51,200 nt of DNA, taken from the IMG/VR virus record IMGVR_UViG_3300022187_000041, positions 1 to 51,200 of that record. One strand, written 5' to 3'. The notes beneath the pieces are model-generated. The model was not told the DNA's origin. It worked only from the letters and a program-made list of their open reading frames with translations, and ran no database searches. Below, piece by piece: positions 1 through 31,799 of the stretch. The position numbers and the translations under genes were made by a program. Position 1 is the stretch's first letter; each line of letters opens with the position of its first letter. The DNA is from a virus.

Positions 1-3000
1 ATACTGCGTTGGATAGTGTTGAGGCTGGTGGTACTTACAACGTAGCTGTTGGAGATGCTGCTGGTACGGCAATAACAACGGGCGATAACAATGTAGCAGT
101 TGGCGCAGATGCACTTTTACTTAACAGTTCAGGCGGCAGTAATACTGCATTGGGGACGAGTTCGGTAAGAAGCAACACAACAGGCGCAAATAATGTTGGG
201 TTAGGGCAAGCCGCTCTCTACTCCAACACCACCGCCAGCTACAATACTGCCACAGGTTATCAGGCGGCTTACTCCACCACCACAGGAGCTTACAACACTG
301 CATTTGGCTATCAAACTTTACTAGACAATACTACAGGTTATGCTAATGCGGCTTTTGCGGCTGACGCAATGGGCAACAATACTACTGGTTTTGACAATAC
401 CGCTTTGGGTAATGCGTCAATGTTCCAGAACACAACAGGGTCGTACAATGTTGCCTTGGGCCGTGCCGCCTTGCAGAACAACACCACCGCATCCAACAAC
501 ACGGCTGTTGGGTATCAGGCGGGGTATAGTAATACTACTGGTGCTTTAAATACCGCTGTCGGACAATCTGCGCTGTTTAACAACACCACCGCATCTAACA
601 ACACATCAATTGGTCGAGCATCCATGTTTGACAATTCAACAGGCGCAAGTAACGTTGCTGTGGGTTCTGGTGCATTGGCTGATAATACCACTGGCTCTTT
701 TAATGTGTCTTTGGGTATGGAGTCTATGCGTCTTAACACCACCGCCAGCAACAACACAGCCGTTGGGTATCAGGCTGGGTATGCGAATACGAGCAATGGT
801 GCAGGTACGTTTATTGGAAGTTTTGCTGGATATACAAGCGTTGCCGCCGATACAACAGCAGTCGGTTCATATACTTTGTATGCGGCGAACACAGGCACTG
901 CAAATGCGGCATTCGGTAAACAGGCTTTGTATGCAAATACATCTGGTGGATTTAATTCAGCCATTGGTTCTTTTTCGCTGATTTCTAATACAACAGGCAG
1001 TTATAACACGGCTTTGGGTAACGGTGCATTAACTAACAACACCACCGCCAGCTACAACACTGCCGTTGGTTATCAGGCTTTATATACAGGTGATACACAC
1101 TCTGGTGTGACTGCAATCGGCTATACTGCACTAAAAAATAACACAGGTAATTTGAACTTTGCTGGTGGTTATGAAACCCTTTTGGGTAACACCTCTGGGG
1201 CGAACAACACGGCAGTAGGCGCTCAGGCTCTACGCTCCAACACCACCGCCGACAACAACGTGGCCGTTGGGTATCGTGCTTTAGAGGACAATACAACAGG
1301 TGCAGGAAACACAGCTTTAGGTACTATTGCTTTACCTAATAACACAACTGGTGCTGATAATGTTTCAATCGGCCACCTTTCTATGGGAGATACCTCGACA
1401 GGTAGTTATAACGTAGCCGTGGGTAAACAAGCACTCACAGCCAACACCACCGCCAGCAACAACACTGCAGTTGGGTATCGGGCGCTTTATCTTAATACAA
1501 CAGGTGCAGAAAATGTAGCTTTGGGTAACTTTGCAGCGGATGCCATGACTACTGGAGTAGAAAACACTGCACTAGGTTACGCTAGTTTATCTGGAACTAC
1601 TACTGGTAACTACAATACCGCTGTCGGCAAAGCAGCACTACAAAACAACACCACCGCCAGCAGCAGCACTGCTGTCGGGTATCAAGCTGCGTATAGCAAC
1701 ACAGAACAAATTGTAACAGCGTTTGGCTATAAAGCAGGTTATACTCAATCTGGAGGAACTCCCGGGTCAAACACTTGGATCGGCTATCAAGCGGGTCTTT
1801 CTGCAACAACAGGTGGAGCGAACACCGCAGTTGGCCGTGAAGGTTTGGCATCAACAACAACAGGTGCATACAATACCGCAGTCGGGGCTGAAGCGTTAGA
1901 AAATAACACCACCGCATCCAACAACACTGCCGTTGGTTATCAGTCACTGTACGATAACACTACTGGTGTAAGAAACTCTGCTTATGGAGATAACTCTTTA
2001 GCTAATAATACCACCGCTAATAACAATAATGCTTTTGGTTACTTGTCCTTGCACACAAATACTACTGGCACAGCAAATGTGGCTATGGGTACAGAGGCTT
2101 TATTCTCCAACACCACCGCAAGCAACAACACAGCATTGGGGTATCAAGCTGGGTATGCAAACACTACTGGTTCAGACATAACAGCTATTGGCTATCAGGC
2201 TCTTGATAGCAATACGACAGGTAACTACAACACGGCTATTGGCCTTTCTGCCTTACAATCAAATACGACAGCCAATAGCAACACTGCGGTTGGTCGCAGA
2301 GCCATGTTTAGCAATTCCACTGGCAGTGATAATGTTGGTCTTGGGTATCATGCTATGTATTCTAATACCACAGGCAGCTCTAACACAGCTTTTGGCGCAC
2401 AAGCACTCCTTTCCAACACCACCGCAAGCAACAACACCGCAGTTGGCTATCAGTCTATGGACGCTAATACTACAGGAGTTAGCAATACTTCTGTGGGGGG
2501 CAGTTCTTTAGGCGCAAACATTACTGGTAATAGTTTAACAGCCATTGGCTCAAATGCTTTACTTGTCAATACAACATCAGGCAATACTGCGGTAGGTTCT
2601 AACGCTGCTTATAATAACACGTCAGGACGTATAGACGCTTTTGGAGTAAATGCTGCTTATAATAACACCACAGGTAATTACAACAGTGCCTTTGGTCAGC
2701 AAAATGGTTTCTTAGCGGCACTTCAAAGTAACACCACAGGCAGTTCTAATGCGGCTTTTGCAACAGGTGCGTTGGGAAATACTACCACAGGCAGTTCTAA
2801 TACGGGGATAGGTGTAGCTGCTCTTTACTCCAACACCACCGCAATCAATAACACTGCAGTTGGGTATCAAGCTGGGTATTCCCAATCAGGTGCAGGAAAT
2901 GGTAACACCTTAGTTGGTTATCATGCGGGGTATACTGGAAACAGTTTTATTGACGCTAGTGCAAACAATACGATGATTGGCAATCAGGCAGGGCTTTCAG

Positions 3001-3689
3001 CAACTACAGCCATTAAAAACACGTTTGTTGGTCAGTTTGCAGGGGGTAATGTAACAACTGGATACAATAACACCATCCTTGGGCGTTATGACGGCAACCA
3101 AGGCGGCTTGGACATCCGCACCTCAAGCAACAACATCGTACTGTCTGATGGGGATGGTAATCCTAGGGTTTATATTCCCAGTAGTGGCAGTATGGCTGTA
3201 GCAACTACTGTATTTGATACTGCAAATACCACAGGTATCACTCTTCAGAAGTATTCTAATGGCGCATATATAACAATTGGTAAAACAAGTAGTGCAGCAA
3301 ATGGAGAAGGTTATATTAACTTTCATAGAAATGGAAGTAATATTGGAGGTGTAACACAGGCCAGTACTTCTTCTGTATCTTACAACACTACGTCCGATTA
3401 TCGGTTAAAAGAAAACGTGGTCAACCTTGAGGGAGCCACTGCAAGATTAGTGCAGCTACAGCCAAAAAGATTTGAATGGATTAGTGACACAGATGGTGCT
3501 GTTTGGGATGGCTTCTTAGCACACGAAGTTCAGTCAGTTGTGCCAGAAGCAATCACAGGCACAAAAGATGCAGTCGATGCAGACGGTAATCCAAAATACC
3601 AAGGCATTGACCAAAGCAAGCTAGTGCCACTCTTGGTCGCTACGATCAAAGAACTAGAGGCACGGATCACTGCCCTAGAAAACGCTTAA
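1..3689 (+). CDS. Tail fibre with head-type repeats and C-terminal S74 chaperone domain (5' partial)
   Basis: The 3' part of a tail fibre or receptor-binding protein; the frame is open at the window edge, so the true start is outside. About 1,000 residues are near-repeats built on an NTTAxNNTAVGYQ / NTTGxxNTA pattern, like the beta-roll repeats of trimeric adhesin heads; I infer a trimeric shaft. The end is a peptidase S74 (endosialidase-type intramolecular chaperone) domain from about residue 1125 of 1226 (counted from the TTG at 9). It begins SDYRLKENV, giving the Ser-Lys pair five residues apart (S1129, K1134) used for self-cleavage in this family. A coiled-coil tail (ELEARITALE) ends the protein. 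It lies upstream of virion genes in the same direction and probably continues the fibre gene that runs off the right edge. Confidence 0.9.
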   Translation, partial: TALDSVEAGGTYNVAVGDAAGTAITTGDNNVAVGADALLLNSSGGSNTALGTSSVRSNTTGANNVGLGQAALYSNTTASYNTATGYQAAYSTTTGAYNTAFGYQTLLDNTTGYANAAFAADAMGNNTTGFDNTALGNASMFQNTTGSYNVALGRAALQNNTTASNNTAVGYQAGYSNTTGALNTAVGQSALFNNTTASNNTSIGRASMFDNSTGASNVAVGSGALADNTTGSFNVSLGMESMRLNTTASNNTAVGYQAGYANTSNGAGTFIGSFAGYTSVAADTTAVGSYTLYAANTGTANAAFGKQALYANTSGGFNSAIGSFSLISNTTGSYNTALGNGALTNNTTASYNTAVGYQALYTGDTHSGVTAIGYTALKNNTGNLNFAGGYETLLGNTSGANNTAVGAQALRSNTTADNNVAVGYRALEDNTTGAGNTALGTIALPNNTTGADNVSIGHLSMGDTSTGSYNVAVGKQALTANTTASNNTAVGYRALYLNTTGAENVALGNFAADAMTTGVENTALGYASLSGTTTGNYNTAVGKAALQNNTTASSSTAVGYQAAYSNTEQIVTAFGYKAGYTQSGGTPGSNTWIGYQAGLSATTGGANTAVGREGLASTTTGAYNTAVGAEALENNTTASNNTAVGYQSLYDNTTGVRNSAYGDNSLANNTTANNNNAFGYLSLHTNTTGTANVAMGTEALFSNTTASNNTALGYQAGYANTTGSDITAIGYQALDSNTTGNYNTAIGLSALQSNTTANSNTAVGRRAMFSNSTGSDNVGLGYHAMYSNTTGSSNTAFGAQALLSNTTASNNTAVGYQSMDANTTGVSNTSVGGSSLGANITGNSLTAIGSNALLVNTTSGNTAVGSNAAYNNTSGRIDAFGVNAAYNNTTGNYNSAFGQQNGFLAALQSNTTGSSNAAFATGALGNTTTGSSNTGIGVAALYSNTTAINNTAVGYQAGYSQSGAGNGNTLVGYHAGYTGNSFIDASANNTMIGNQAGLSATTAIKNTFVGQFAGGNVTTGYNNTILGRYDGNQGGLDIRTSSNNIVLSDGDGNPRVYIPSSGSMAVATTVFDTANTTGITLQKYSNGAYITIGKTSSAANGEGYINFHRNGSNIGGVTQASTSSVSYNTTSDYRLKENVVNLEGATARLVQLQPKRFEWISDTDGAVWDGFLAHEVQSVVPEAITGTKDAVDADGNPKYQGIDQSKLVPLLVATIKELEARITALENA
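180..2900 (+). repeat. Degenerate tandem coding repeats in the fibre gene
   Basis: Blocks such as AACACCACCGC followed by AACACTGCCGTTGG and TATCAGGC recur roughly every 150-300 bp, some almost identical at DNA level (for example near 225, 480, 740, 1040, 1450, 1650, 1910, 2110, 2415 and 2830). They encode NTTAxNNTAVGYQAGY. The DNA similarity exceeds what the protein pattern alone would need, so recombination between copies could change fibre length. Confidence 0.8.
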
Positions 3690-5002: not shown

Positions 5003-8000
5003 ATGAAAACGTTCAAAGGCTTTACTAATCAGCAGACCCATCAACTCCTCAAAGAGATGGGCTTCACAGGCCCAGCGCAGAAGGATGAGATGGATGCGTT
5101 TCTTGCGTCTAGCCCTAGTGCAGCATCTAAGATAGGCCGTTACGCTGAGATAGCTAAGCAACGTGTAGAGGGTGGCCCTTTGTCTGGCATGGGGTTTGCT
5201 CAAGGTGATCTTGTAGAAAAAGTTAAAGATCCTAATGAATATACTGCTGTGTCTAGAATAACACCTAATGTATCTACTGACGTTGGAACAATAGAAAATA
5301 GTAATTTTACAGGAGAAACAGGTAATTTATTAGACCCTAATGCTTCTATAGATTCTTCTAAAGCTACTACACCTAGTTATAAATTTACATATGATCAAGC
5401 TGTAGCCCGTCAAGCTCAGAGAGATGTAAAGTCACCTGAGGAAGCTAGAGCTATTCAGATAGCTTTAGATATGGGACCAGATGCTATACCTGCACCTGAA
5501 GGATCTGAAGTATTATCTGTAGGTACAGCTTCACCTGAAACTACTCAGCCCTCTATAGACTTAGACACTGCACAGCAATCCTATAGTGACGCTATGGGTC
5601 AGCTTACAGAAGCACAGAAAGCTCTGACTAATGTTGAGATGCCTGAGGGTTCTTCTATTGATCCAGCAACAAATAGACTACCTAATGCTTCTTACGAACA
5701 GATACTAGAAGAGGTTGGACCTTTTACTAGTGATTTTGATTCTTATGTAGGAGATTTTAAGCCTTTTGAGGTTGATGATTTTAAGTCTTTAGTGGCTAGT
5801 GGCAATATTCCAGAAGACCCTAGTGATTACGAGATAGAACCTCTAGGATCAGAGGGAATTAACAAGAAGTTTTTAATAAAGTACCCTAATGGTCAATCTA
5901 TAGAGTACTCAACTTATAGTGCTGCCGTGGCTAATAGTGCACCAGATATAGCTAGTATGTTTGCTCAAGGTCTTAATCAGGCTAAAGATAGTAAAATATA
6001 CAGGGAAACTAATAATTATAACCAGCTTCTTACTGACGTAGAAAATGCTGATGAATTAGTTACACAAACAGGGGCTGACGTAGCCACTAAACAAAAGCAG
6101 TTTGAAACTACAGACATACCTTCTACGAGTGAAGCTCTAGGTAAAGCTATTACTACCCCTAGCTCTGTATTGCAGAAGCCTACTGTGTATGGCTTGAAAG
6201 TAGAAGACGATCAGCTTATTGATGAAGATACTGGACAGGTAGCTACAGCCGCTTCACTCTTAGTTAAGCAAGCACAGGCTGCAGATGCAGTGGAAGACCC
6301 TGCAGTTAAAGCTACCTTAGCTTATTTAAGTGGTTTGACTGAAGAAGAGAAAGCTTCTAAGTACCCTATGCCTAGCCCACCTGAGGGTAATTGGGGTGGC
6401 TTTCTAGGTTTATTTTTTCAAGAGCCTGATGCTGATGCAATTAAAGAATATAATGATGCAGTAGCTGGGGTACACGCTCGTATTGAGCAAGACGCTATTA
6501 AGTCTCGTGCAGAAACATATACTGCTGTTATGTCACAGGATAAAGTTAAGACTGCACTAGAAGACTTTGCTGCAGCTACAGGTACACCATCCAGTGATGC
6601 TTTAATGAAAGCAGAAACGATGCTACCTGAAGATCTAGCCCAGCTAGACTTAGATGCAGAAACGCTAGACATTATACGTGAAATCCCTGAGGTCAAGAGG
6701 ACATTAGATGCAGGTGAAGTACCGACTGCAGCTTTATTTGATGAGTATACAAAATCGGAAGCCGCAGAGTTTGAAGGCGAAGTTGGAGAGGTTGACCCAG
6801 CTAAGTTTGAAACTGAAACTCCTAAGGCAGAAGCTGAAGTAGACTACAACCTACCACCTAGTGAAGTAGCGGAAGTAGAGAAAAGTAAAGTAGAAGATGC
6901 CGCTAACTTTAATGAATACGCTACAGCAGAAGAAAAGAAGTCTGAGTTTGTACCTGAGATTACTGCAGAAGAAACTGCTGTAGGTGATGAAGAGATTGTT
7001 GATGTAAATAATATCATTAACAGTGAAGAAGTAATCGTAGCAGGTAAAACTCTAGAAGCTTTAAACGAAGCGTCTACCGCTAAGGCTGCAACTGCTACCT
7101 TCACTCAACAGTTAGCCGCTAAAGCAGTCAAGGGTGAAGTAAGTGCTGCATCTACTGTGCAGTTCCAGATGGAAAAACTTATGAAGTCCTTTGATGATGG
7201 GACACCCGCATGGGCGGCTGGAGCTTTACGTAAAGCTAATGCAGCTATGAATGCTCGTGGGTTAGGCAATAGTTCTATGGCTGCTGCTGCAATTATCCAG
7301 GCTTCACTAGAAAGTGCTATCCCTATAGCTCAACAGGATGCAGCTACATTTCAAGCTATGGATATGGAGAATGTCCGTAATGAGCAAGCCGTAGCTCTAG
7401 CTAATGCTGCTGCAGCACAGAACTTTGAGTTAGCTAACTTGTCAAACGAACAGGCTACACGTATTCAGAACAGCATGAACAATGCTAATCTCCAGTTAAA
7501 GAACTTATCTAACGAACAAGAAGCTGTACTTGCTACTGCACAATTCAAGGCTGCACTGTTAGGCCAAGAGCTTGACATTAGTGCTAACGTAGCGATTGCT
7601 AATGCTGCACGTTATGCTGCAGTCAACGATATTAACTTGACAAACAGACAGCAAACCTCTATACTTAAATCTACACAGAACTTAGAAGTAGAGATGGCTA
7701 ACCTGTCTAACTCACAGCAGACAGCCTTGTCTAACTTACAAGTTAAAGCTGCCATGATGGGCCAAGAGTTGACTAACGAGCAACAGATGGCTGTACTAGA
7801 GAGTACACAGGCGTTTGAGACTAACATGCAAGACGCTACCATGAGGCAGCAAGCGTTTATCCAAGATGCTGTAGCTCGTGCAGCTATGGAAGGCCGTGTC
7901 TTAGATAACAAGCAACAGACTGCTTTGTTCAACGTGTCTAACGCTGTAGCTGAACGTGAGATAGAACTCAATAACGAACAGCAAACAGCTATCTTCAACA

Positions 8001-8953
8001 TGAGCAATAAGCTAGAAGTTGATATGACTGAGATGTCTAATCGTCAGCAGACTGCTTTAGCTAATGCACAGATTGAAGCTGCAATGAAGGGGCAGGAGCT
8101 TACGAATAAACAGCAGGTAAACGTTATCAAGGCAGAGCGTATTGCTGAGATAGCTAACTTAAACTTCAGTGCTGAGCAAACACGAGTGCTCAAGAACTCA
8201 GAGATGGCTATGTCCGTAGACTTAGCTAACCTGTCAAACAAACAAGCTAAGCTTATGGCTGACGTAGCGTCTATGGCTAACGTTGATATGGCTAACCTAA
8301 ACAACCGTCAACAGGCTGCAGCACAACAAGCTCAGGCCTTCCTGCAGATGGACATGGCTAACCTAGATAACGAACAGCAAGCAGTTATGTTTGAAGCACA
8401 GTCTCTTGTGCAGAGCGTACTGTCAGACCAAGCTGCAGAGAATGCTCAGCTACAGTTTAACGCTGAGAGTATCAACCAAGTTAATCAGTTCTTTGACAGC
8501 ATGTCAACGCAGATCAGTCAGTTCAATACTGCACAAGAGAATGCTATGGAGCAGTTCAACGCTGGTGAAGAAAACTCTATGACTAAGTTCCAAGCTGAGC
8601 TAGATAACCAGCGTGATATGTTTAACGCACAGAATGAACTGGTTATTGCACAAGCTAATACTGTGTGGAGACAGACTATTGCTACAGCTAATACGGCTGC
8701 ACTTAATGAGGCTAACATGGCTGAAGTTATGGCAGCTAACAACCTGACTATGCAGGGTCTAGCTGAGTTGTGGCAACAGGAGCGTGACTTGTTAGACTTC
8801 GCATGGACTAGCTCTGAGAAACAAATGGATCGTGAGCACGAGTTAGCTAAAGCAAATATACAAGCAGATGGCGCAGAGGATGCAGCCTATAGTTCTGCTG
8901 CAGGTAACTTCTTGTCTAGTGTTGTAACAGCGTTCATCACCAAAAAACTATAA
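5003..8953 (+). CDS. Large candidate internal virion protein with 22-residue repeat array
   Basis: A 1316-residue protein with no recognised enzymatic motif. The first 60 residues form a helical domain (FTNQQTHQLLKEMGFTGPAQ). Residues ~90-720 are acidic and mostly helical. Residues ~793-1232 are about twenty uninterrupted 22-residue units with consensus N-x-QQTAL-x(n)-AAMxGQEL. Twenty-two is two 11-residue (hendecad) periods, the spacing of slightly right-handed helical bundles. By position and size I infer a capsid-internal or ejected protein analogous in role, not sequence, to T7 gp15/gp16. It could instead be a tail needle or fibre component. It begins immediately after the upstream stop. 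Confidence 0.75.
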   Translation: MKTFKGFTNQQTHQLLKEMGFTGPAQKDEMDAFLASSPSAASKIGRYAEIAKQRVEGGPLSGMGFAQGDLVEKVKDPNEYTAVSRITPNVSTDVGTIENSNFTGETGNLLDPNASIDSSKATTPSYKFTYDQAVARQAQRDVKSPEEARAIQIALDMGPDAIPAPEGSEVLSVGTASPETTQPSIDLDTAQQSYSDAMGQLTEAQKALTNVEMPEGSSIDPATNRLPNASYEQILEEVGPFTSDFDSYVGDFKPFEVDDFKSLVASGNIPEDPSDYEIEPLGSEGINKKFLIKYPNGQSIEYSTYSAAVANSAPDIASMFAQGLNQAKDSKIYRETNNYNQLLTDVENADELVTQTGADVATKQKQFETTDIPSTSEALGKAITTPSSVLQKPTVYGLKVEDDQLIDEDTGQVATAASLLVKQAQAADAVEDPAVKATLAYLSGLTEEEKASKYPMPSPPEGNWGGFLGLFFQEPDADAIKEYNDAVAGVHARIEQDAIKSRAETYTAVMSQDKVKTALEDFAAATGTPSSDALMKAETMLPEDLAQLDLDAETLDIIREIPEVKRTLDAGEVPTAALFDEYTKSEAAEFEGEVGEVDPAKFETETPKAEAEVDYNLPPSEVAEVEKSKVEDAANFNEYATAEEKKSEFVPEITAEETAVGDEEIVDVNNIINSEEVIVAGKTLEALNEASTAKAATATFTQQLAAKAVKGEVSAASTVQFQMEKLMKSFDDGTPAWAAGALRKANAAMNARGLGNSSMAAAAIIQASLESAIPIAQQDAATFQAMDMENVRNEQAVALANAAAAQNFELANLSNEQATRIQNSMNNANLQLKNLSNEQEAVLATAQFKAALLGQELDISANVAIANAARYAAVNDINLTNRQQTSILKSTQNLEVEMANLSNSQQTALSNLQVKAAMMGQELTNEQQMAVLESTQAFETNMQDATMRQQAFIQDAVARAAMEGRVLDNKQQTALFNVSNAVAEREIELNNEQQTAIFNMSNKLEVDMTEMSNRQQTALANAQIEAAMKGQELTNKQQVNVIKAERIAEIANLNFSAEQTRVLKNSEMAMSVDLANLSNKQAKLMADVASMANVDMANLNNRQQAAAQQAQAFLQMDMANLDNEQQAVMFEAQSLVQSVLSDQAAENAQLQFNAESINQVNQFFDSMSTQISQFNTAQENAMEQFNAGEENSMTKFQAELDNQRDMFNAQNELVIAQANTVWRQTIATANTAALNEANMAEVMAANNLTMQGLAELWQQERDLLDFAWTSSEKQMDREHELAKANIQADGAEDAAYSSAAGNFLSSVVTAFITKKL
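7379..8698 (+). repeat. Twenty 66-bp coding units (22-residue hendecad repeats)
   Basis: Starting at the Asn codon at 7379, units of exactly 66 bp follow without an indel. They begin NEQAV, NEQAT, NEQEA, ISANV, NRQQT, NSQQT, NEQQM, MRQQA, NKQQT, NEQQT, NRQQT, NKQQV, AEQTR, NKQAK, NRQQA, NEQQA, AENAQ, MSTQI, EENSM and NELVI. I checked the frame at 8303 (fifteenth unit), which falls exactly on its Asn codon. DNA copies have diverged, so the spacing is held by protein structure. Confidence 0.85.
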
Positions 8954-8965
8954 AGGTTTACTTAT

Positions 8966-10558
8966 ATGTCTAGCTTTGACCAAGTAATAAAAAACATACT
9001 GTCTGATCTCTTTGGCTCTAATGAGCAAGAGGATGTAGTAAGACCTCAAGCCAGACCATCTGGTTTAGGTGCTCCCACTACTAGCCCACGCCCTCGACTT
9101 AGACCAGAACAGGATGACGATGATGAAGTAGCTATCCCGTCAGGAAGTGAGGCTACATCTAAGTTTATTGCTGCAATGGCTGACTATGATGATACACCTG
9201 AGCAAGGCGTAGACATACCTCTTTCTACTTTACAGACAGATGCTAGAAACCTGAACGGTAAGTACAAGACTACAGCTATGCAGTTAGCTAAACTTAACAA
9301 AGGTGCGCCTTTAACGGATGGCGGTAGAGCTAACGTAAGGGTTGCAGGTATAGAAGAAGACAATACATTAGACGATCTTTTGTTTGATGTAAGGGTTGCA
9401 ATGAATAGACGCCCTCTAGAAGAAATACCTTTATCTGAACAGCCTATAACAGGCCAAGGTTTTGATATGTCAGTTAAAGACATACAGATACACCTTAACT
9501 CTCGTGGGTATGATGTAGGTGGTATAGATGGTAAGATGGGTTCAAAGACACGGGCTGCTATCAAGTCTTTTCAAAAAGATGAGGGTCTGTCTGTAGACGG
9601 TATTGCAGGTAAGAACACACAAAGAGCACTACAAACTGAGAAACCTCTAGAACCAATAATTACAACTGTGTTAGATGATATAGACCCTTCAGCGGCTGCG
9701 CCTGATGATTCTCGTTTTATAGCTAATCCTTTAGATGAGTTTATGCCTAACTTAAACATAGGAAGCATTCGTGACATTAAGTTAGATACTACTGCCATAC
9801 AAACAAAGCTTTCAGATCTAGGTTATGATGTAGGGGAGATAGACGGTAAGATGGGTAAACGTACCCGTAAAGCTATCAGAGAGTTCCAAAAAGATAAAGG
9901 ACTAATGGCTGACGGTGTTGTTGGGCCTGACACTACAGAGGCTATAATACGTGAACAACGTACCTCTAACATAGACGAAGAGACAGGTATGCCAGAAGTA
10001 AAAGACGGTAGCATACTTTCAGGGCTAGGTAATCTTCTAGGTAATTTAGGTTTAGGTACTAGCGAGTTTAGGTTCTTTGCGGGTAATCTGACTAACCCTG
10101 GTGGTAAAAGAACAGAAAAGTCTTTAAATAAATCTGACATGAAGGCGTTACGTTCTGCAGTAAACGCAGCCATACAAGACGGTAGGTCTTATACTACGTA
10201 TGAAGACTTTGGTTTTGATGAAATGGAAGTAAATAAGTACAGCCCTTTAAGTGGTGTTATTGATCCTGACTTACGCATGGCTAGAAGTATAGGTGTATTT
10301 AATTTTGACGTAAACGACAAAGGAAATGTTGTTATTGAAGATACGTTTGACTTTAATCCAGGCCCTAAAAGAATAGCTTATTACGAAGCAGTTAAAAAGG
10401 GTAATAAAAAAGAAGCTTTGGCTATGCTTGCTGATGTATCACCTGTACAGGCAGCGTCTATGGTAGGCTACGCTAAACAAGAAAGCCTTAAAGAGCAAGA
10501 CAAACCCTACGAAACACAGATAAATATCAACTTAGGCAAACCTGATACGTGGTCCTGA
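8966..10558 (+). CDS. Virion-type protein with two peptidoglycan-binding domains
   Basis: A 530-residue protein with two PG_binding_1 domains: ~170-224 (IQIHLNSRGYDVGGIDGKMG, then TRAAIKSFQ and DGIAG) and ~276-330 (LSDLGYDVGEIDGKMG, then TRKAIREFQ and DGVVG). These three-helix domains bind cell-wall peptidoglycan. No catalytic wall-cleaving domain is seen here; the muramidase encoded 2.7 kb downstream may supply it. The N-terminus is disordered and Pro/Asp-rich; the C-terminal 150 residues look globular and unknown. The Shine-Dalgarno is weak (AAAGG). A role in anchoring to or crossing the cell wall during entry, or in lysis, is inference. Confidence 0.8.
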   Translation: MSSFDQVIKNILSDLFGSNEQEDVVRPQARPSGLGAPTTSPRPRLRPEQDDDDEVAIPSGSEATSKFIAAMADYDDTPEQGVDIPLSTLQTDARNLNGKYKTTAMQLAKLNKGAPLTDGGRANVRVAGIEEDNTLDDLLFDVRVAMNRRPLEEIPLSEQPITGQGFDMSVKDIQIHLNSRGYDVGGIDGKMGSKTRAAIKSFQKDEGLSVDGIAGKNTQRALQTEKPLEPIITTVLDDIDPSAAAPDDSRFIANPLDEFMPNLNIGSIRDIKLDTTAIQTKLSDLGYDVGEIDGKMGKRTRKAIREFQKDKGLMADGVVGPDTTEAIIREQRTSNIDEETGMPEVKDGSILSGLGNLLGNLGLGTSEFRFFAGNLTNPGGKRTEKSLNKSDMKALRSAVNAAIQDGRSYTTYEDFGFDEMEVNKYSPLSGVIDPDLRMARSIGVFNFDVNDKGNVVIEDTFDFNPGPKRIAYYEAVKKGNKKEALAMLADVSPVQAASMVGYAKQESLKEQDKPYETQININLGKPDTWS

Positions 10559-11012: not shown

Positions 11013-11624
11013 ATGGCAGTATTAGAATATAGCAAACCTATTCCAGGTTCATCCCTTACGACACACAAGATAGGTGAGCGTCAGTGGGAAAGACCCCCAG
11101 AGATTGCCTCTGTAGACGAAGCTTTAAAGTACTACATGCAGCGGTTGACTGATGAAGAGATTATTGATGACTTCATGGTAGCCATAGAGTCAGGTATTGC
11201 TATTAACCCTCTAGTAAAAACTTTGTATATGTCAAACGTTATGCGAGGTGTACATAGTTTAGATGTAGGTATACTTGTTGCTCCTGCGTTGACTGAATAC
11301 TTTGCTGCTTTAGCTAGAAGCTATGATATAGAATACAAGATGTCTAATAAAGACTACAAGAAAGAGAAGCAAGAAAAAGAGAACGCTAAGATTACTATGC
11401 TTCTACAGGCTGCAGTTAAACAAGCAGATACACAGGATGAAGGTACAGCTATGTTACAGAACATGGCAGACTTTTTAGAGCAAGAAGTACCTGAGGAAGC
11501 TATGCCTGAAGAGGCTGTACCACAGGAAGAAGTACCAGAGGCTGAAGAGCTACAACAAGTAACAGAACCTGCTGAAGAGCCAATGCCGCCTGAGGGTGCA
11601 GGTCTTATGGCGAGAGGTGCATAA
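11013..11624 (+). CDS. Conserved phage protein with Pro/Glu-rich tail
   Basis: A 203-residue protein. Residues 1-150 are an ordered helical domain (SVDEALKYYMQRLTDEEIIDDFM is its start region). Residues ~155-200 are acidic, Pro-Glu-rich and probably disordered (repeats of EEAMP, EEAVP, EEVPE). The function is unknown. AGGAAAAT precedes the ATG. Its place between a membrane protein and candidate internal proteins suggests a virion role. Confidence 0.72.
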   Translation: MAVLEYSKPIPGSSLTTHKIGERQWERPPEIASVDEALKYYMQRLTDEEIIDDFMVAIESGIAINPLVKTLYMSNVMRGVHSLDVGILVAPALTEYFAALARSYDIEYKMSNKDYKKEKQEKENAKITMLLQAAVKQADTQDEGTAMLQNMADFLEQEVPEEAMPEEAVPQEEVPEAEELQQVTEPAEEPMPPEGAGLMARGA

Positions 11625-11626
11625 CT

Positions 11627-13237
11627 ATGGGTTTTAACTTTAAAGCATTTGCCACGGCGTTTATGGATGACCAAGCTAAGGCTATTCAGAAGCGTGTCCA
11701 AGATGCAGAGGACTATGAAGATCAACAGCGTGAACTAGCTGAACGTAATAAATCTGTTGTAGGTAAACGTAGAGCCTTAGTCAACTTAGCTAAAACAGAA
11801 ATCAATATGCTTAGAAAGCTAGGCGCAAAAGACAAGCACATCAATGCAGCTATTGCAGCAGGGCCAAAGGCTCTGTTTGAGTTCTCACAGTCGCTACAGA
11901 AAGAAGCACAGAAGAGGCCCAGCGCTGGTGGTTCGTACACATTTAGTGATAGTGAGCTAGATGCTTTCATTGATATGCCTGATGAGTTTTCCGCACAAGC
12001 TATGGACCCTGCTGAACACTACGCTAACTCTATTGGTTTAGCTTCACCATCACTAGGTAGTTACCAAGCTAAAGATCAGGGCTTCCTAAAGTCTGCGCTG
12101 GGCATGGGTCTTAAAGATTCAGCAAGGGCTAGACTGGATAAAGATGCGTACTACGAAGGCTACTCTATGATGGACATCAATGAGGTAGCTAGACAAGAAG
12201 CCTATGAGAGTATGGACCCCGGAACTTACTTCTCTTTTAGCCCTTCCAAGGATTACAATCCTGTGACTGTAGGTCCAGCTTTTAGAGAGGCCTATGATGA
12301 TGCGGGTGAATTATCTCAGGCTGTAGAGTCTCAGCTTCGTAGACAGTTTCCTGCAGAGGCAGACTACATGCAAGAAAAAGCTAGGATTATCGCACGTCAA
12401 AGATCAGGTGTGATTGATGCGTATGCTCAGCAGTTTGGTAAACGTTTCTTAGAGGATACATCTATTAACCTACAAGGTCTAATGGGTGATGATTTGTATC
12501 AAGCTACATACATGAATTACCAAAGCCAAGATGACTTGGAAAGATACATTGTAGATGGCTTGCTTGACCTAGAAGGTATTAGCGTTGGTAGTACTGTTAA
12601 AACAAAGGACAATGAGGGCAGAATTGTAGAGATTACATTAGGTGAAGGTGATGAAGTCTCTCGTATGAAGATTAACGGTAGGGTTGTAGATGATGATGAT
12701 GTAGCTGCCCTAGTAGCTAACCTACAAAAGCAGGGACTTCTTAGTCAGTCTTCTATAGCTGTAGGGGGTCAGCCTCTACCAGAAGCGGAACCTGAGGTAG
12801 ATCCAGAAAAGGTATTCTTTTCAGGTGATGACATCCCAGACGGAACCTTTGATGGTAAACTACACTATGTAAAAGAAACAGATAAAGGTAGAGGTGTAGC
12901 TTTAGGTGTACCACCAAGACCAGCAGAGGGTTTGTTTGCTGAGTTTAGAGGCTCAGGTATGGATGGTGCAACCAGAGATAAGATACTCTCAGGTGAGATG
13001 CCTGTACCCGATAACTTAAAGCCTAGCCAATGGGATGAACTGTTTGGGAATACACATAATGCTGACGGAACACGTAAAGTAACTGTTGACACAACAGAAA
13101 CAATACGTTATACTGAGTCTAATCCATTGGATTTAAAAACAATGAGTTCAGACGAGGCAGAAGAAGCATATGAGAATCTTAAAAAAGGCGAGTATTTTAT
13201 TAATCCTGCTGACGGTAGGGTACTTCCTAAGCGTTAG
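11627..13237 (+). CDS. Candidate internal virion protein
   Basis: A 536-residue protein, starting 2 bp after the previous stop. The N-terminal ~100 residues are a basic helical coiled coil (AKAIQKRVQDAEDYEDQQRE). The middle is mixed helix; residues ~315-360 contain a beta-rich stretch with a KOW/SH3-like look (VGSTVKTKDNEGRIVEITLG). No known domain is certain. Position points to an ejected or inner-core protein. A promoter for the next genes lies inside its 3' end. Confidence 0.7.
   Translation: MGFNFKAFATAFMDDQAKAIQKRVQDAEDYEDQQRELAERNKSVVGKRRALVNLAKTEINMLRKLGAKDKHINAAIAAGPKALFEFSQSLQKEAQKRPSAGGSYTFSDSELDAFIDMPDEFSAQAMDPAEHYANSIGLASPSLGSYQAKDQGFLKSALGMGLKDSARARLDKDAYYEGYSMMDINEVARQEAYESMDPGTYFSFSPSKDYNPVTVGPAFREAYDDAGELSQAVESQLRRQFPAEADYMQEKARIIARQRSGVIDAYAQQFGKRFLEDTSINLQGLMGDDLYQATYMNYQSQDDLERYIVDGLLDLEGISVGSTVKTKDNEGRIVEITLGEGDEVSRMKINGRVVDDDDVAALVANLQKQGLLSQSSIAVGGQPLPEAEPEVDPEKVFFSGDDIPDGTFDGKLHYVKETDKGRGVALGVPPRPAEGLFAEFRGSGMDGATRDKILSGEMPVPDNLKPSQWDELFGNTHNADGTRKVTVDTTETIRYTESNPLDLKTMSSDEAEEAYENLKKGEYFINPADGRVLPKR
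13086..13114 (+). promoter_or_regulatory. Internal sigma70-like promoter before the muramidase gene
   Basis: TTGACA at 13086-13091, 17 bp, TATACT at 13109-13114 (five of six at -10). It lies in the 3' coding end of the upstream gene. The predicted start near 13121 precedes the muramidase start by about 127 bp. It would allow the muramidase and the 1222-aa protein to be transcribed separately from the genes before them. Confidence 0.6.
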
Positions 13238-13247
13238 GGGTTTAAAC

Positions 13248-13814
13248 ATGGGAAATGCAATTGACTTCTCACAGAGGGGAAGCACAGGAAACACTATAGA
13301 TTTTTCCACAAGATCTACAGATACTTCTTTAGTAGAGAAACCACAAGCGCCTGTACACACAGGACCGTTTGAAAGTAAAGCAGCTTTTATAAGTGCAATA
13401 CAACCTTTAGCTAAACAGCTATCTCAAGAGTTAGGTATTGATGAGCGTGTTATCATTGCACAAAGTGCGGTGGAAACAGGGTGGGGTAGTAAAGTAAAAG
13501 GTAATAGCTTCTTTGGTATCAAAGCACATGGCGGTGAAGGTATTGACTTTACTACACATGAAGTTGTCAACGGTCAAAGAGTTAAGATCCAAGACACCTT
13601 TAAAGCATATAATAGTTTAGCTGATAGTGTACAAGGCTACGGTACTTTTTTACAAGAGAACCCACGCTACAAACCTTTCCTTACAGCTACTACATTAGAA
13701 GAACAGATTGCTGCATTAGGTAGGTCAGGCTACGCTACAGACCCTAACTACGCAAAGACAGTAAGAAGTATAGCTAAAGGAAAAACTCTCAGAGAGTTAG
13801 GCGGTTATGAATGA
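13248..13814 (+). CDS. Glucosaminidase-type muramidase (peptidoglycan hydrolase)
   Basis: A 188-residue protein with a FlgJ/LytF-type glucosaminidase domain from ~43 to 188. Key parts are the catalytic Glu in QSAVETGWG (E76), NSFFGIKA, and DTFKAYNSLADSVQGY. It cleaves glycan strands of the cell wall, for lysis or genome entry. The ATG at 13248 follows AGGGGT at 6 bp. An earlier in-frame ATG at 13170 would add 26 residues with a hydrophobic helix (ASILLILLTVGYFLSV), giving a signal-anchor form that overlaps the upstream gene by 68 bp. I prefer the shorter form. It overlaps the next gene by ATGA. Confidence 0.8.
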   Translation: MGNAIDFSQRGSTGNTIDFSTRSTDTSLVEKPQAPVHTGPFESKAAFISAIQPLAKQLSQELGIDERVIIAQSAVETGWGSKVKGNSFFGIKAHGGEGIDFTTHEVVNGQRVKIQDTFKAYNSLADSVQGYGTFLQENPRYKPFLTATTLEEQIAALGRSGYATDPNYAKTVRSIAKGKTLRELGGYE

Positions 13815-16800
13815 CAAACCAAGTAGATATATTTAAGAAGTATGGATTAGGAGAGGGTGGCTTTGCAAAAGTAGAGCCACCTATGCACAAGCATAGCTCC
13901 ACTGTGTTAGACAATGAAGAGGAAGTCTTTGATAGTCCTGTACCTGAGGGTCAGAAGTTAAAGAAGAAAGACCTGTATAGATACGAAAACCTTAACACCA
14001 TACGTGACTACATGTCAGCCAACAAAGGCGCTGACTATATGGATATAAGTGAGGAAACTCTAGTAGAAGACTTTGTTGACCACATGCGTTTCTTTAATAC
14101 TAACGCTGTGTCTACTGCAGGTGAGGTACGCTTTATAAGTAAGGCTGATGAGAACACTAAGGCTATGGCTGCACAGGCGTACAACTTGTACGACAGCTTA
14201 GGTAATGTGTTTGTCAATGACGGTATATACGGTGCGTTAGACGGTGTGAAAGACTACGTGTTTGCTGCAGCGTCAGACCCTACAAACTATGTGGGTGCGC
14301 TTACTGGTGGTTTCGGTAAGGCGGCTGCATTAGGTGTAACACAAACAGGTAAGGCTGCAATTAAGCAAGCAGCAAGTCAGGCCGCTAAACGTGCAGCACA
14401 GAGTGGTGCTACTAAGCAAGCCGCTGAGAATGCTGGTATTGAGGCTGGTACTCTAATGGCTCAGAAGATGATAGCTAAGAGTGCGTCTAGCAAAGAAGTC
14501 TCTATGGCAGCACGTAAGGCTGCAAAGAAAGCCAAGGCAGAAGTTAGACTTCGGGCTGCACAAAATGCTGCATCAGGTGTAGCTAAAGATGAACTAAAGA
14601 AGGCTGGCAAGAGGGCTGTACTACAGACTACAGCTATTGATGCACTTGTAGCAGGTATACAGGATAATGCTATCCAACATATTTACCTAGATGTAGGTGC
14701 TCAAGAAGAATACAGTGAGTTACAAACAGGTTTATCTCTTGCGCTGGGCGGTGTAGGGGGTGGCTTGCATTACGCCTTTGGTAAGTTTGGTGGTGCGTCA
14801 GGCTTAGGTGATGCTGTACAAGAAGCACAGATAGCAGGACGTGCAGAGAAGTCAACTGAGCTAGTAGACAGAGCTAAGATTGCTTCACTAGACAAAGACA
14901 TTAAAGCTGCAGAGGCTATGCCAGCAGCAACCAAGGGTCAGAAGACAGCTAGAACTAGAAAGATAAACCAACTCAAGGCAGAGAAGCGTAGACTAAAACG
15001 TGAGACTGTAGGTAAGCCTTTGCTACCTGACGTTAAGGATCAGGATAGAGCATCTAACGCTATCAAGGATGGTATCAAAAGATGGGATGAAAAAGTCAAA
15101 GCAGGTGAGGAAGTCTTAGAAGAGAATACCGCTATACCTGAAACTCTCTTACGTCAAATTATGTTAGGTGATGGTAATAAGGGTGGTGTTGTAGAAGTCT
15201 TTAGGGATAAAGGTATAAAGATTCGTAGGGACACTAAGGTGTCTGACATTATGACTAACCTGTTAAGGTTCATGCCAGAAGAAGAACTACAAGAGATCTC
15301 TGGATTGTTCAGAAGTCGTGTAGGTGTAACACTAGGTGAGGCTGCTGACTTAGGTGTGGAGATTGGCGAGATTATTGCAGCAGATGTATCCAGAGCAGGA
15401 CGTAAGCTTGCAGTTATGTCTCAGGTTAGACGCACTATAGACGGTGGTGTCGTTGCTGGTAACGAGATACTTAAAGAAACACTAAACAGTAAAGAACTAC
15501 GTGACACACTTGAGTCTGAGTTTGCCTTAGCTAGAAAAGCTAAGCGTTTTTCTTACGGTCAGAACGTATGGAAACGTATGTTGGTTTCATCTCCTGCTAC
15601 TACAGCCGCAAACGTCATGGGCTTCGGGCAGTTTTTTACTGGTCAAGTTGTAGCTGACACTATGTCATCTGGTCTTCTTATGGTTGGCGCTGCAGGGCGT
15701 TACGGTATAGGCGACAAAGTAGGTGCAGATAAACTATTCCGACAGGCTAAAGTCTATCGTCAAATACAAACTCAAAAGATGAAGAACTTTGCTGACCCTT
15801 TCACAACGCATGATGCTTACATGAAGATGATGAAAGAGATCAAAGATGAAACAGGGCAGTCAGATATTCAAGGTTTGCTGTTTGAAACAGTAGCAGGGGG
15901 AGTAGAGCGAAGCGCTAAGCGTTTTGGAATGGACCCTAACGATCCTGTGTACAAGAATGTAGAAAGACTAACAAACGCATCTATGAATATTACGGGTGTG
16001 CGTATTCAAGATACATTCACTAAGTCACAGATGTTTATGACTGAACTAGACAAGTACCTACAGTTAAAGAAAGAAGTATCACTCAAGACAATTCTCAAAG
16101 AAGGTAGACTAGAGGAGATAGACGATGACGTTATTGGTGCTGCTATTGACACGACACTACGGTCTGTCTTTTCCAAAGACTACACGACAAAAGATCAAGC
16201 CTTCGGAGAGATAGCTAAGTTTGTAGAGAAAGCTTCTAACACCCCAGGTTTGGGAACTATCATACCTTTCGGTAGATTTATGAATAACGTTGTAGCTACA
16301 GCTTATCAGTGGGGTCCAGCATCATTGCTACCTGCTGCATCACGCATAGCTAAGGATGGAGACATCCAGTCTATTGAGGCTATGTCCAGAGCTTTAGTAG
16401 GTACATCAGGATTAGGTATGGCTATGCTGTACTCAGAGAAGCAAGAGAAGCAAGGCCTAGCTTTCAATGAGATTAACACAGGCGGCGGTACTATCATAGA
16501 TGTACGTAACGTATTCCCTATGTCAGCCTTCTTAGCTATGGGTAGGGCTGCAAACCTTAAACGTAAAGGTGAGCCTGTACCTAAAGAGCTTTACCAAGAG
16601 ATAGGTAACCAGCTTGCCATTGGTCAGGTTGCACGAGATGCACAGTTTGCAAACGACATGTACAATATTATGGACATGATGTTCAACGCAGAGGGTGGCA
16701 ACAGAAGCAGAGGCTTTGAGGCTTTGTACAAGTCAACAGGTAATATCGCTGCTGGCTTCACACGTCCTCTTGATGCAGCTAACAGAATGGTTGGCTTCCT

Positions 16801-17479
16801 GACTGACACTGATACAGCCAAGGACGTTAGACAAGCTAAGGGTGGCGCAGTGTTTACGCAAAGCGCATCTAAATACTTTGACAATATCCTAGAGGTATTG
16901 ATAGGTGAAACAGATACTATCACTGGTGAAAAACTACGAGTAGCTACACGTAAGGGTGACGTATATGACGCTAATCCATTGGCTAGGATACTAGGTATCA
17001 ACATCAAGAAAGGCAGAACAGCAGCAGAGAAAGTATACTCGCTGTCTGAACTACAGACATGGACAGCAGACCAACGTGGTAAGATCCCTATGTACGACAG
17101 GATCTTTAATGAGTCAATTGCTCCTATGCTAGAGCCTAGAATGTCTAGACTTTTAAAGGATGAACGATTTACTGAGGGGAAGGGTTTACCTGCAGGTGCA
17201 AGCTTGCTGCAGTATCGTAGAGACAGGGTTAAATATGAGCTTCAACAAGCTCGTAAAGAAACACGAAACATGCTAGACTATTATGAGAATCCCGGTTTCA
17301 TGGATCGGTTACGCTTTAAGGCTTACACTAAGGGTACTAAAGAGCAACAAGCAGAAGCCCTCAAGTACATGAAGCGTAACGGTGTCTCCTCTACAGATGT
17401 AAGAGAGTTCAACTTCAGAGAGTTAAACATGTACAACTCATACATAGATCATCTCAATTACCTAAAGAAGGGTAACTAA
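13811..17479 (+). CDS. Very large candidate internal/ejection protein
   Basis: A 1222-residue protein, last gene of the rightward block, coupled to the muramidase by an ATGA overlap. Residues ~155-270 are Ala/Lys-rich helices (KAAIKQAASQAAKRAAQSG), ~270-320 are more hydrophobic, and residues ~340-400 form charged coiled coil. Several amphipathic or hydrophobic stretches occur later (TTAANVMGFGQFFTGQVVAD; LLMVGAAGRYGIG). I see no lytic transglycosylase motif, unlike T7 gp16. By size, location and composition it is probably ejected with the DNA; this is inference. Confidence 0.72.
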   Translation: MTNQVDIFKKYGLGEGGFAKVEPPMHKHSSTVLDNEEEVFDSPVPEGQKLKKKDLYRYENLNTIRDYMSANKGADYMDISEETLVEDFVDHMRFFNTNAVSTAGEVRFISKADENTKAMAAQAYNLYDSLGNVFVNDGIYGALDGVKDYVFAAASDPTNYVGALTGGFGKAAALGVTQTGKAAIKQAASQAAKRAAQSGATKQAAENAGIEAGTLMAQKMIAKSASSKEVSMAARKAAKKAKAEVRLRAAQNAASGVAKDELKKAGKRAVLQTTAIDALVAGIQDNAIQHIYLDVGAQEEYSELQTGLSLALGGVGGGLHYAFGKFGGASGLGDAVQEAQIAGRAEKSTELVDRAKIASLDKDIKAAEAMPAATKGQKTARTRKINQLKAEKRRLKRETVGKPLLPDVKDQDRASNAIKDGIKRWDEKVKAGEEVLEENTAIPETLLRQIMLGDGNKGGVVEVFRDKGIKIRRDTKVSDIMTNLLRFMPEEELQEISGLFRSRVGVTLGEAADLGVEIGEIIAADVSRAGRKLAVMSQVRRTIDGGVVAGNEILKETLNSKELRDTLESEFALARKAKRFSYGQNVWKRMLVSSPATTAANVMGFGQFFTGQVVADTMSSGLLMVGAAGRYGIGDKVGADKLFRQAKVYRQIQTQKMKNFADPFTTHDAYMKMMKEIKDETGQSDIQGLLFETVAGGVERSAKRFGMDPNDPVYKNVERLTNASMNITGVRIQDTFTKSQMFMTELDKYLQLKKEVSLKTILKEGRLEEIDDDVIGAAIDTTLRSVFSKDYTTKDQAFGEIAKFVEKASNTPGLGTIIPFGRFMNNVVATAYQWGPASLLPAASRIAKDGDIQSIEAMSRALVGTSGLGMAMLYSEKQEKQGLAFNEINTGGGTIIDVRNVFPMSAFLAMGRAANLKRKGEPVPKELYQEIGNQLAIGQVARDAQFANDMYNIMDMMFNAEGGNRSRGFEALYKSTGNIAAGFTRPLDAANRMVGFLTDTDTAKDVRQAKGGAVFTQSASKYFDNILEVLIGETDTITGEKLRVATRKGDVYDANPLARILGINIKKGRTAAEKVYSLSELQTWTADQRGKIPMYDRIFNESIAPMLEPRMSRLLKDERFTEGKGLPAGASLLQYRRDRVKYELQQARKETRNMLDYYENPGFMDRLRFKAYTKGTKEQQAEALKYMKRNGVSSTDVREFNFRELNMYNSYIDHLNYLKKGN

Positions 17480-18045: not shown

Positions 18046-19119
18046 TTAAGTTAGATCTACTACTTCACATACATCACCAGTACAAGCCATAGTCTGCATT
18101 GCAACAGTGTTGTCTTCTTGTTCATAGTCAGAGAGCTTACTCCAATTAATCTTCTCTGGCATAGAACTTAATAATACTTCATACTCTTCCTTTGTGCAAT
18201 CCTGATATGGAGCTTGCTGATAAGTATGATCTGAGTGTGGCAAGAAAGACACACCTGACATCTCGTCAAAGTGCTCATACACAAACGCACCTACATGCAT
18301 CCACTCATAGTCACGCACTGATATAGTCACGCTAGGTTTGTGCTCACACCAATGACGCTGATAGGTAAGCCAAAGATCTAGTTGCTCTAGGGCTGTCATA
18401 TCATTACGTGTTACCGCACCTGCAGGTGACTTCTGTGGGAAGCTGAACACAGTAGTTGTATCACCCTTCATAACGCATGGCTCATTAGGAATACCTTGAT
18501 CCTTCATAAGCTGTGTTAGTGGATCTTTGTTATCACCACGGACAGTACGGATATAATAGGGACTATGGCGAGCATGTATCCCAGAGGCTGAATCCACCAA
18601 TTGTGATACCGTACCCGAAGGTTTGACGCATGTAATCGCAGCAGCCACAGGTATACCAAGACGGTCAGCCCATTCAGCATTAGTAGCCACAGCAAGGGAA
18701 CGTAGGTGCTCAAGTGTTTTCTCCAATCCTCTATTCTCATGTGTCATTAAGGGGTTGTCCATTATTCCTGTAAGCGACACACCCAACAGACGCTCTTCTT
18801 CGGTGTTCTTGCTCCACACCTTACGCAAGTATGGAAACTTTGTGTAGGCCGACTGGATTGTTCCAAGGATTGTTGCGATGCGTACCTTGCCTTCCAAGTT
18901 TTCAATAGTATCTGTGGCACGTACAACAACTTCCGTAAGATTACAGAACTGGTACGGACGCAAGATAATCTCGCTGCACGGGTTAGTCCCAAACTCATGG
19001 TGAGGGTCACGTCTACCATTCTTTGCAGCCTGTACTTTACTTGCCTGACGATTGAATACACCACGTTCTCCTGACTTGCTTTCTACTAGGGCTTGCCACT
19101 CACGCATGAACGTTTCCAT
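18046..19119 (-). CDS. nrdJ: Class II ribonucleotide reductase, C-terminal fragment (frameshifted)
   Basis: A 357-residue C-terminal part of a B12-dependent (class II) monomer-type ribonucleotide reductase, which makes deoxyribonucleotides for phage DNA. It contains NPCSEIILRPYQFCNLTEV with the active-site Cys and Glu, the CVKPSGTVSQLVDSASGIH phosphate-binding region, and a C-terminal Cys pair (ACTGDVCEV) for electron transfer. The frame continues upstream through GQWWETAAHRALANNSVSYT to a TGA near 19188, beyond the ATG at 19119. It should be fused to the N-terminal fragment; about 25 nt are missing at the join. Confidence 0.88.
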   Translation of the reverse strand: METFMREWQALVESKSGERGVFNRQASKVQAAKNGRRDPHHEFGTNPCSEIILRPYQFCNLTEVVVRATDTIENLEGKVRIATILGTIQSAYTKFPYLRKVWSKNTEEERLLGVSLTGIMDNPLMTHENRGLEKTLEHLRSLAVATNAEWADRLGIPVAAAITCVKPSGTVSQLVDSASGIHARHSPYYIRTVRGDNKDPLTQLMKDQGIPNEPCVMKGDTTTVFSFPQKSPAGAVTRNDMTALEQLDLWLTYQRHWCEHKPSVTISVRDYEWMHVGAFVYEHFDEMSGVSFLPHSDHTYQQAPYQDCTKEEYEVLLSSMPEKINWSKLSDYEQEDNTVAMQTMACTGDVCEVVDLT

Positions 19120-19154: not shown

Positions 19155-19919
19155 CTAACGCACGATGCGCTGCAGTCTCCCACCACTGTCCTCACTTAGG
19201 TTAGACAAACTAATCATAGCACTACGGCGTACACCACCTACTACAACGATCTGACCAATGAAGCACATCAAGTCGTGACACTCAATGCTAGATAGCCTAC
19301 GTCCTTGTGCGTTCTTGAATGTTGCAATAGCAAAGTTAAACAGTTCAACTAAAGGCGCTGGGCCACTAGCTCTACCGCCAAACGTTTTAAGTCTAGACCC
19401 TGCAGGACGTACCAAACCTATGTCCCACTGAGGGATTTCACCAGCCCAGAGGAGTGCCAACAATTGTCTGAAAGCTTTAGCCCAACCTTCCTTACTGTCT
19501 TTGACAACGATTGTAGTTTCACTGTCGAACAACTCAGGGACTTCAGGGAGTTTACTAACAAACTGACGCTCAACACTGAAGCCAACACCAGTACCGCACA
19601 AGAGGATAAACATAGCCTCGTCGAAGGACTTAGGGTCATCTACGGGTAGGTAACTACAGTTATACCCTGCAGTATTATCACGAGCTAGAGCAGGGCCAGC
19701 AGTCATCATAGCTCGCATAGATGGCATAACATCTAAGCTTAGAATAGCGTCACGCATCTGATCTACGTAGCTATCATGCCCTGCCTTAGGGCGTACAACG
19801 TTATTCATGTAGCGCTCTACTGTTTCACTCCAAGACTCACGCCCTTTGTTATCAAAGTATTTAGCGTACCTAGACTTGTGAATGAATGACTGATAGTCAG
19901 TCGGTAAGTAATTATCCAT
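19155..19919 (-). CDS. nrdJ: Class II ribonucleotide reductase, N-terminal fragment (frameshifted)
   Basis: A 254-residue N-terminal part of the same reductase. It includes NTAGYNCSYLPVDDP (the N-terminal redox Cys), LLCGTGVGFSVERQ and VVGGVRRSAMISLSNLSED. After that point homologous sequence ends and 11 unrelated residues lead to a stop. The correct frame resumes at GQWWET two positions out of phase. The start overlaps the MazG stop (TAATG). Function is likely lost unless the gap is a sequence error or the population carries an intact copy. Confidence 0.88.
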   Translation of the reverse strand: MDNYLPTDYQSFIHKSRYAKYFDNKGRESWSETVERYMNNVVRPKAGHDSYVDQMRDAILSLDVMPSMRAMMTAGPALARDNTAGYNCSYLPVDDPKSFDEAMFILLCGTGVGFSVERQFVSKLPEVPELFDSETTIVVKDSKEGWAKAFRQLLALLWAGEIPQWDIGLVRPAGSRLKTFGGRASGPAPLVELFNFAIATFKNAQGRRLSSIECHDLMCFIGQIVVVGGVRRSAMISLSNLSEDSGGRLQRIVR

Positions 19920-31659: not shown

Positions 31660-31799
31660 TGTGTCATCTCCTCAAGTTTTTCTTTCAGTCTAACGACTTG
31701 CTGTTCAAGCTTTTGTATCTTTCGTTCTTCCCAAGTGCTTTGATGTTCTTGAGTAAAACGTTTCATATTATCCAAAAAAATATCTATATTTTGCATCAT
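31656..31799 (-). CDS. Very small coiled-coil protein (47 aa)
   Basis: Starts MMQNIDIFLDNMKRFTQEHQ and ends LKEKLEEMTQ; a continuous coiled coil. Both its start (with the methyltransferase stop) and its stop (with the next start) form ATGA overlaps, strong support for a real gene. Unknown function. Confidence 0.62.
   Translation of the reverse strand: MMQNIDIFLDNMKRFTQEHQSTWEERKIQKLEQQVVRLKEKLEEMTQ

Follow-up and report, generated by a model that had tools for sequence, protein, structure and literature searches.

A proline-free helical region locked to an 11-residue spacing in a protein of an HMO-2011-like marine podovirus, and its possible role in DNA delivery

Among the structural genes of a virus with a genome of modest size, what is the role of a 1316-residue protein in which about 440 residues recur on a fixed period? 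The window analysed here, a whole stretch of 51,200 nucleotides, is the record of a 51.2-kb virus of a common marine short-tailed kind, with its relatives in the HMO-2011 group of podoviruses. The sequence-only reading of this DNA had spoken of a giant phage, and this part had to be given up, because the window phage is an HMO-2011-like podovirus of about 51-55 kb. Its genes run in the order terminase, portal-like, major head, tubular-type tail proteins, fibres, repeat gene and a few further structural genes, and the polymerase, helicase and reductase genes lie on the opposite strand. The portal/adaptor and tubular-type tail proteins make up a podovirus gene set, and no tail-tube gene was found among the proteins scanned. 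On the reverse strand, two separate ORFs (18046-19119 and 19155-19919) match the single ribonucleotide reductase ORF of about 640 residues in relatives, hence the reductase gene looks split or frameshifted. A DNA methyltransferase at 31796-32890, also on the reverse strand, contains a weak primase-family match.

The repeat-bearing ORF occupies 5003-8953 on the forward strand, from ATG to stop under table 11, and all of its parts given below lie on that strand. A signature at residues 717-776 (7151-7330; STVQFQMEKLM...PAWAAGA...RGLGNSSM...AIPIA) precedes the repeats and is conserved in relatives, including Rhizobium, Vibrio and Aeromonas phages. The C-terminal region (8651-8950; QANxxWRxxI...LWxxxRDxxxxAWxSxE) was likewise found to be conserved in the alignments. 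These two anchors, the first ending with PIA at residue 776 and the second beginning with QANxxWR at residue 1217, enclose residues 777-1216 (7331-8650), which is exactly 440 residues or 20 x 22. Thus the earlier claim of about 440 residues on a 22/11 grid without an indel was borne out. The 22-residue period itself is real, as identity at lag 22 reached 0.248, against 0.093 +/- 0.013 (maximum 0.148) in 2000 shuffles, and autocorrelation showed that identity at lag 11 is raised in the region as well.

The further claim of twenty exact repeats was correct in its arithmetic and in its spacing, but not in its sequence content. Only sixteen units, at residues 782-1133 (7346-8401; PSSM scan and autocorrelation), carry the 22-residue motif xxxxMDMxNLSNxQQTALxNxQ, and they are about 25% identical to each other, so that the exactness is one of spacing alone. 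By most frequent residue, the family consensus reads A/N-A-A-Q-M-D-L-Q-N-L-S-N-E/R-Q-Q-T-A-L-A-N-A-Q. From about residue 1140 the period shifts to 11 residues (QFNAxxxNxxx), and the final 90 residues or so form a ladder of six phenylalanines 11 residues apart, at 1152, 1163, 1174, 1185, 1196 and 1207 (8456-8623). A six-step run of this kind was present in 75 of 93 relatives, and the longest run in shuffled sequences was three. In addition, the stretch 7562-8092 holds the conserved glycines G854, G920, G964 and G1030, whose spacing of 66, 44 and 66 residues marks a 110-residue super-repeat. Tandem Repeats Finder detected no DNA-level tandem repeat in the repeat region of the window, and a recent DNA duplication there was rejected on this ground.

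For comparison, 143 relatives were gathered by scans of IMG/VR and from phage records. In GenBank the repeat protein is confined to 26 of 50,697 phage records, all of one loose group, which takes in phages of Roseobacter, Pelagibacter, SAR116, Rhizobium, Sinorhizobium, Vibrio, Aeromonas and Pseudoalteromonas together with one uncultured podovirus. A cellular origin was considered and rejected, since the few matching genome contigs, which come from MAGs (marine or uncultured) and from one single-cell genome, are most likely phage contigs. In the HMO-2011 homologue (L060) the last 73 residues form a C-terminal domain unmatched in the other phage records of the collection, and the C-terminus of one further relative (L144) appears similar to it.

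The 11-residue spacing is kept throughout these relatives. Of the spacings between repeat hits, 1629 out of 1630 were divisible by 11, and the distance between the anchors was a multiple of 11 in 136 of 137 relatives; the sole exception (L077), with a distance of 658, lacks two residues in AFMDMANL. The flanks on the N- and C-terminal sides of these proteins have lengths distributed evenly modulo 11, and the alignment of relatives shows clean gaps of 11 residues. No proline occurs in 30,624 residues of the repeat region across the family, as compared with 4.7% outside it, and dN/dS values of 0.05-0.09 point to purifying selection. Together with the indels in elevens, these results agree with the strong structural selection that had been proposed from the regular spacing.

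The length of the region is quantised, mostly in steps of 110 residues. The anchors stand 220 residues apart in 35 relatives, 330 in 19, 440 in 52, 550 in nine and 660 in two (plus the one of 658); a distance of 209 was seen in nine, and a few other values in distant relatives. The rods of the family hold 15 to 60 hendecads. On a tree built from the conserved flanking parts, 25 length changes were needed, 15 of which are multiples of 110. In long members, identity at lag 110 is elevated (0.46 in L047 and 0.40 in L083), a 110-residue duplication is visible at the DNA level in L047, L042 and L083, and throughout the family conserved glycines fall at 77 and 33 modulo 110, counted from the C anchor. 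Recombination among relatives and unequal crossing-over of 110-residue blocks can spread such a step without selection. The quantised length and the tape-measure-like phenylalanine ladder might also suit an assembly ruler or internal scaffold, a helix that measures or spaces something in the assembly of the head or tail hub, outside any delivery conduit. We regard such a ruler as improbable, as the gene set is that of a podovirus, no long tail tube genes were seen, and no feature of the virion is known that would match lengths of 220-660 residues.

A helical rod is well supported by these data. An all-helical fold was predicted with low confidence: AlphaFold gave only helices and no globular fold for the window segment (pLDDT 46, low) and a helix of 200 residues for a relative of 390 residues (pLDDT 63, low), and these predictions carry no information on oligomers. 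A beta or leucine-rich-repeat-like solenoid was rejected on the lack of proline, the purely helical AlphaFold models and the indels of 11 residues, for a solenoid would be broken by the gain or loss of a half-unit, and a helix read in elevens would not. In Fourier analysis, hydrophobicity did carry an 11/22 period, with peaks at 2.75, 7.3 and 2.2, all of them harmonics of 11/22. The peak foreseen near 3.67 did not appear with any strength (power 4.7 in the window and a mean of 1.5 in the family); it is charge that peaks there and at 2.2 family-wide, the latter being the second helix harmonic on an 11-spoke wheel. The long helical bundle of the sequence-only reading therefore stands as a long alpha-helix locked to 11 residues (3.67 per turn) and not as a simple one-faced amphipathic helix, which the weak hydrophobicity at 3.67 excludes. 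Across the family, the second helix harmonic is carried by hydrophobicity and the first by charge. Plotted on the 11-spoke wheel, the residues fall into a pair of hydrophobic seams, a charged face and a face of uncharged Ser/Gln/Ala/Asn, and this pattern suggests a helix laid out as in the wall of an alpha-helical barrel.

The same observations bear on a membrane role. The 11/22-residue repeats of apolipoproteins and synuclein belong to amphipathic helices, and exact, proline-free repeats of these lengths might let the protein coat or pierce the host membrane in a similar manner. This appears very improbable, because the helix has no one-sided hydrophobic face (power at 3.67 of about 1.5) and is very rich in Asn and Gln; moreover, apolipoprotein 22-mers are usually punctuated by proline, which the repeat region lacks entirely. 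The extreme C-terminus ends in a short hydrophobic tail rich in Ala and Gly. No transmembrane helix was found in this tail, as no 19-residue stretch exceeds 1.6 in hydropathy, and a C-terminal transmembrane pore was rejected for the same reason, the excess of GxxxG being mild (53 against 32.6 expected).

The neighbouring genes, all on the forward strand, place the repeat gene at the head of a virion-gene block. Directly downstream lies a gene for a 530-residue protein with several peptidoglycan-binding domains (8966-10558). It is followed by a small gene of 203 residues with no assigned family (11013-11624), which was traced by HMM in 122 fetched loci and lies next to the repeat gene in each of the ten named phages that were checked, among them phages of Rhizobium and Vibrio; its product is likely a functional partner of the repeat protein. 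A 536-residue gene of the terminal virion block (11627-13237) comes after it, and its product showed no homology to T7 or P22 ejection proteins. An ORF with a Glucosaminidase domain (13170-13814, forward strand) overlaps the 3' end of the 536-residue ORF in another frame and was seen in only nine fetched loci. The block closes with a 1222-residue gene (13811-17479), for whose product no homology was found. In HMO-2011-like phages the order of repeat protein, partner of about 170-200 residues, protein of about 500 and protein of about 1200 residues is conserved and co-directional.

Homology searches did not assign the repeat protein to a family. The window protein had no match in Pfam, PHROG or the PDB, and PDB searches by sequence and by fold returned nothing for the repeat protein, phiX174 H included. 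Profile-profile comparison (hhalign) with P22 gp7, gp20 and gp16, T7 gp13-16 and the ejection proteins of phiEco32 and 7-11 gave probabilities below 7% throughout, the best match falling outside the repeat and signature parts, and no homology to tape-measure proteins was found. The significant fold matches in BFVD have 31-51% identity and TM-scores below 0.2; they are relatives by sequence and not fold evidence. Similarly, the match of the CRP-3 homologue to phrog_6121 was lost once its Peptidase_S74 domain was cut off, and does not speak for a common origin with ejection proteins.

Peptidase_S74 is an intramolecular chaperone, usual on trimeric fibres. It was found at the C-terminus of two relatives, CRP-3 (L067), where it is the sole S74 of the genome, and L078, and was absent from the window repeat protein and from most relatives scanned. 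These two homologues, the position of the repeat gene, which comes after the tail-fibre genes in those genomes that were read, and a rod length that varies as in fibres favour an external fibre, stalk or tail needle. Such a structure would consist of three parallel helices wound into a right-handed coiled coil of hendecads, with layers of Asn/Gln, resembling the undecad stalks of trimeric adhesins, and its length would set the reach of the tip. We nevertheless consider the fibre unlikely, although second in rank. Neither the window protein nor most of its relatives have a tip or receptor domain, conservation is strong (dN/dS as above) across phages of unrelated hosts, and the window phage encodes a separate S74 tail fibre of its own at 9-3689. 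Furthermore, S74 occurs on DNA-ejection proteins too, for example AH02 gp11 (of the P22 gp7 family phrog_598) and 7-11 gp20, and since it is borne by fibres and ejection proteins alike, its presence in two relatives is not decisive; therefore an ejection or pilot rod was ranked first and the trimeric fibre second.

In our leading interpretation, to which we give nearly an even chance, the repeat protein is a tape-measure-like or pilot-like internal helix of the virion for DNA delivery. The 440-residue region would form a very long, essentially unbroken alpha-helix of hendecads, each of 11 residues making three turns, grouped into 22-mers and then into super-units of 110 residues. This helix may serve as a rod, or as the lining of a putative oligomeric helical assembly. 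The protein, presumed to lie inside the virion, would leave the capsid with or ahead of the DNA as an ejection or pilot protein and form part of the delivery conduit, with the length of its rod fitted in steps of 110 residues. It would then act as a tape-measure protein or the H tube of phiX174 placed in a short-tailed phage.

Several results argue for this delivery rod: spacings and indels locked to 11 next to flanks that are random modulo 11, the zero count of prolines, a dN/dS unlike that of a fast-evolving adhesin, the AlphaFold helices, the barrel-wall-like wheel, the six-step phenylalanine ladder, the ejection-like gene order and the share of length changes that are multiples of 110. Against it stand the lack of homology to ejection proteins or PDB entries, a likeness to the phiX174 H wheel that is not significant, the S74 domain on two relatives and the missing transmembrane helix. 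A straight helix of 440 residues would measure about 66 nm and exceed a podovirus head of about 60 nm, so it would need to bend inside. A more specific proposal, that short-tailed marine phages own a tape-measure-like ejection rod made of a hendecad helix that lacks proline and has one face lined by Asn/Gln, in quanta of 110 residues (10 hendecads, about 16.5 nm) that perhaps span different host envelopes, is doubtful as a whole.

The 11-residue lock and the 110-residue quanta, held over many independent length changes, are an unusually clean structural constraint visible in sequence, and in the relatives of 220, 330, 440, 550 and 660 residues a single rod occurs naturally at different lengths. 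Should the protein prove to build a delivery conduit, the ideas behind tape-measure proteins and the phiX174 H tube would be linked to podoviruses.

Among known systems, NadA carries an undecad coiled coil in the stalk of a trimeric adhesin (PMC6191539). Its right-handed 11-residue coiled-coil repeat would have a counterpart in the repeat protein, but adhesins of this type are membrane-anchored, cell-surface and unrelated. The ejection proteins P22 gp7, T7 gp14 and those of kuraviruses occupy a comparable place at the start of the terminal virion-gene block, and some of them bear S74 as in the repeat family, whereas no hendecad array was seen in those examined. In its order the repeat-gene block is also similar to the ejection-gene blocks in 7-11 and phiEco32 and to the gp73-gp72-gp71 trio of DEV (PMC10925440).

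The phiX174 H protein is a DNA-piloting tube for DNA passage through the envelope (4JPP; PMC7354561). Its amide-rich hendecad helices with two hydrophobic seams suggest a resemblance to the repeat protein, but it has three hendecads followed by heptads (121 residues), as against the 15-60 hendecads of the repeat family, and shares no sequence similarity with it; the helical wheel is laid out in a similar way to that of the H hendecads (sequence from PMC7354561), a suggestive likeness whose correlation, r=0.54, is not significant (p=0.085). Some siphovirus tape-measure proteins have an 11-residue aromatic ladder, pattern 1 of which is seven consecutive F/W residues at 11-residue spacing (Belcaid et al. 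2011, PMC3271669). As presumed for the repeat protein, they are long helical proteins of the virion; they have in common with it an 11-residue unit, an aromatic ladder and a length that changes by entire units as these are duplicated or lost. The repeat protein differs in belonging to a short-tailed phage without a tail tube to measure, in a region that is mostly an Asn/Gln 22-mer, and in a ladder of six and not seven or more, so that none of 93 relatives shows pattern 1. This tape-measure ladder is the nearest described pattern. The repeat protein is assigned to neither family, and may by analogy act in the manner of a tape-measure protein or an H tube.
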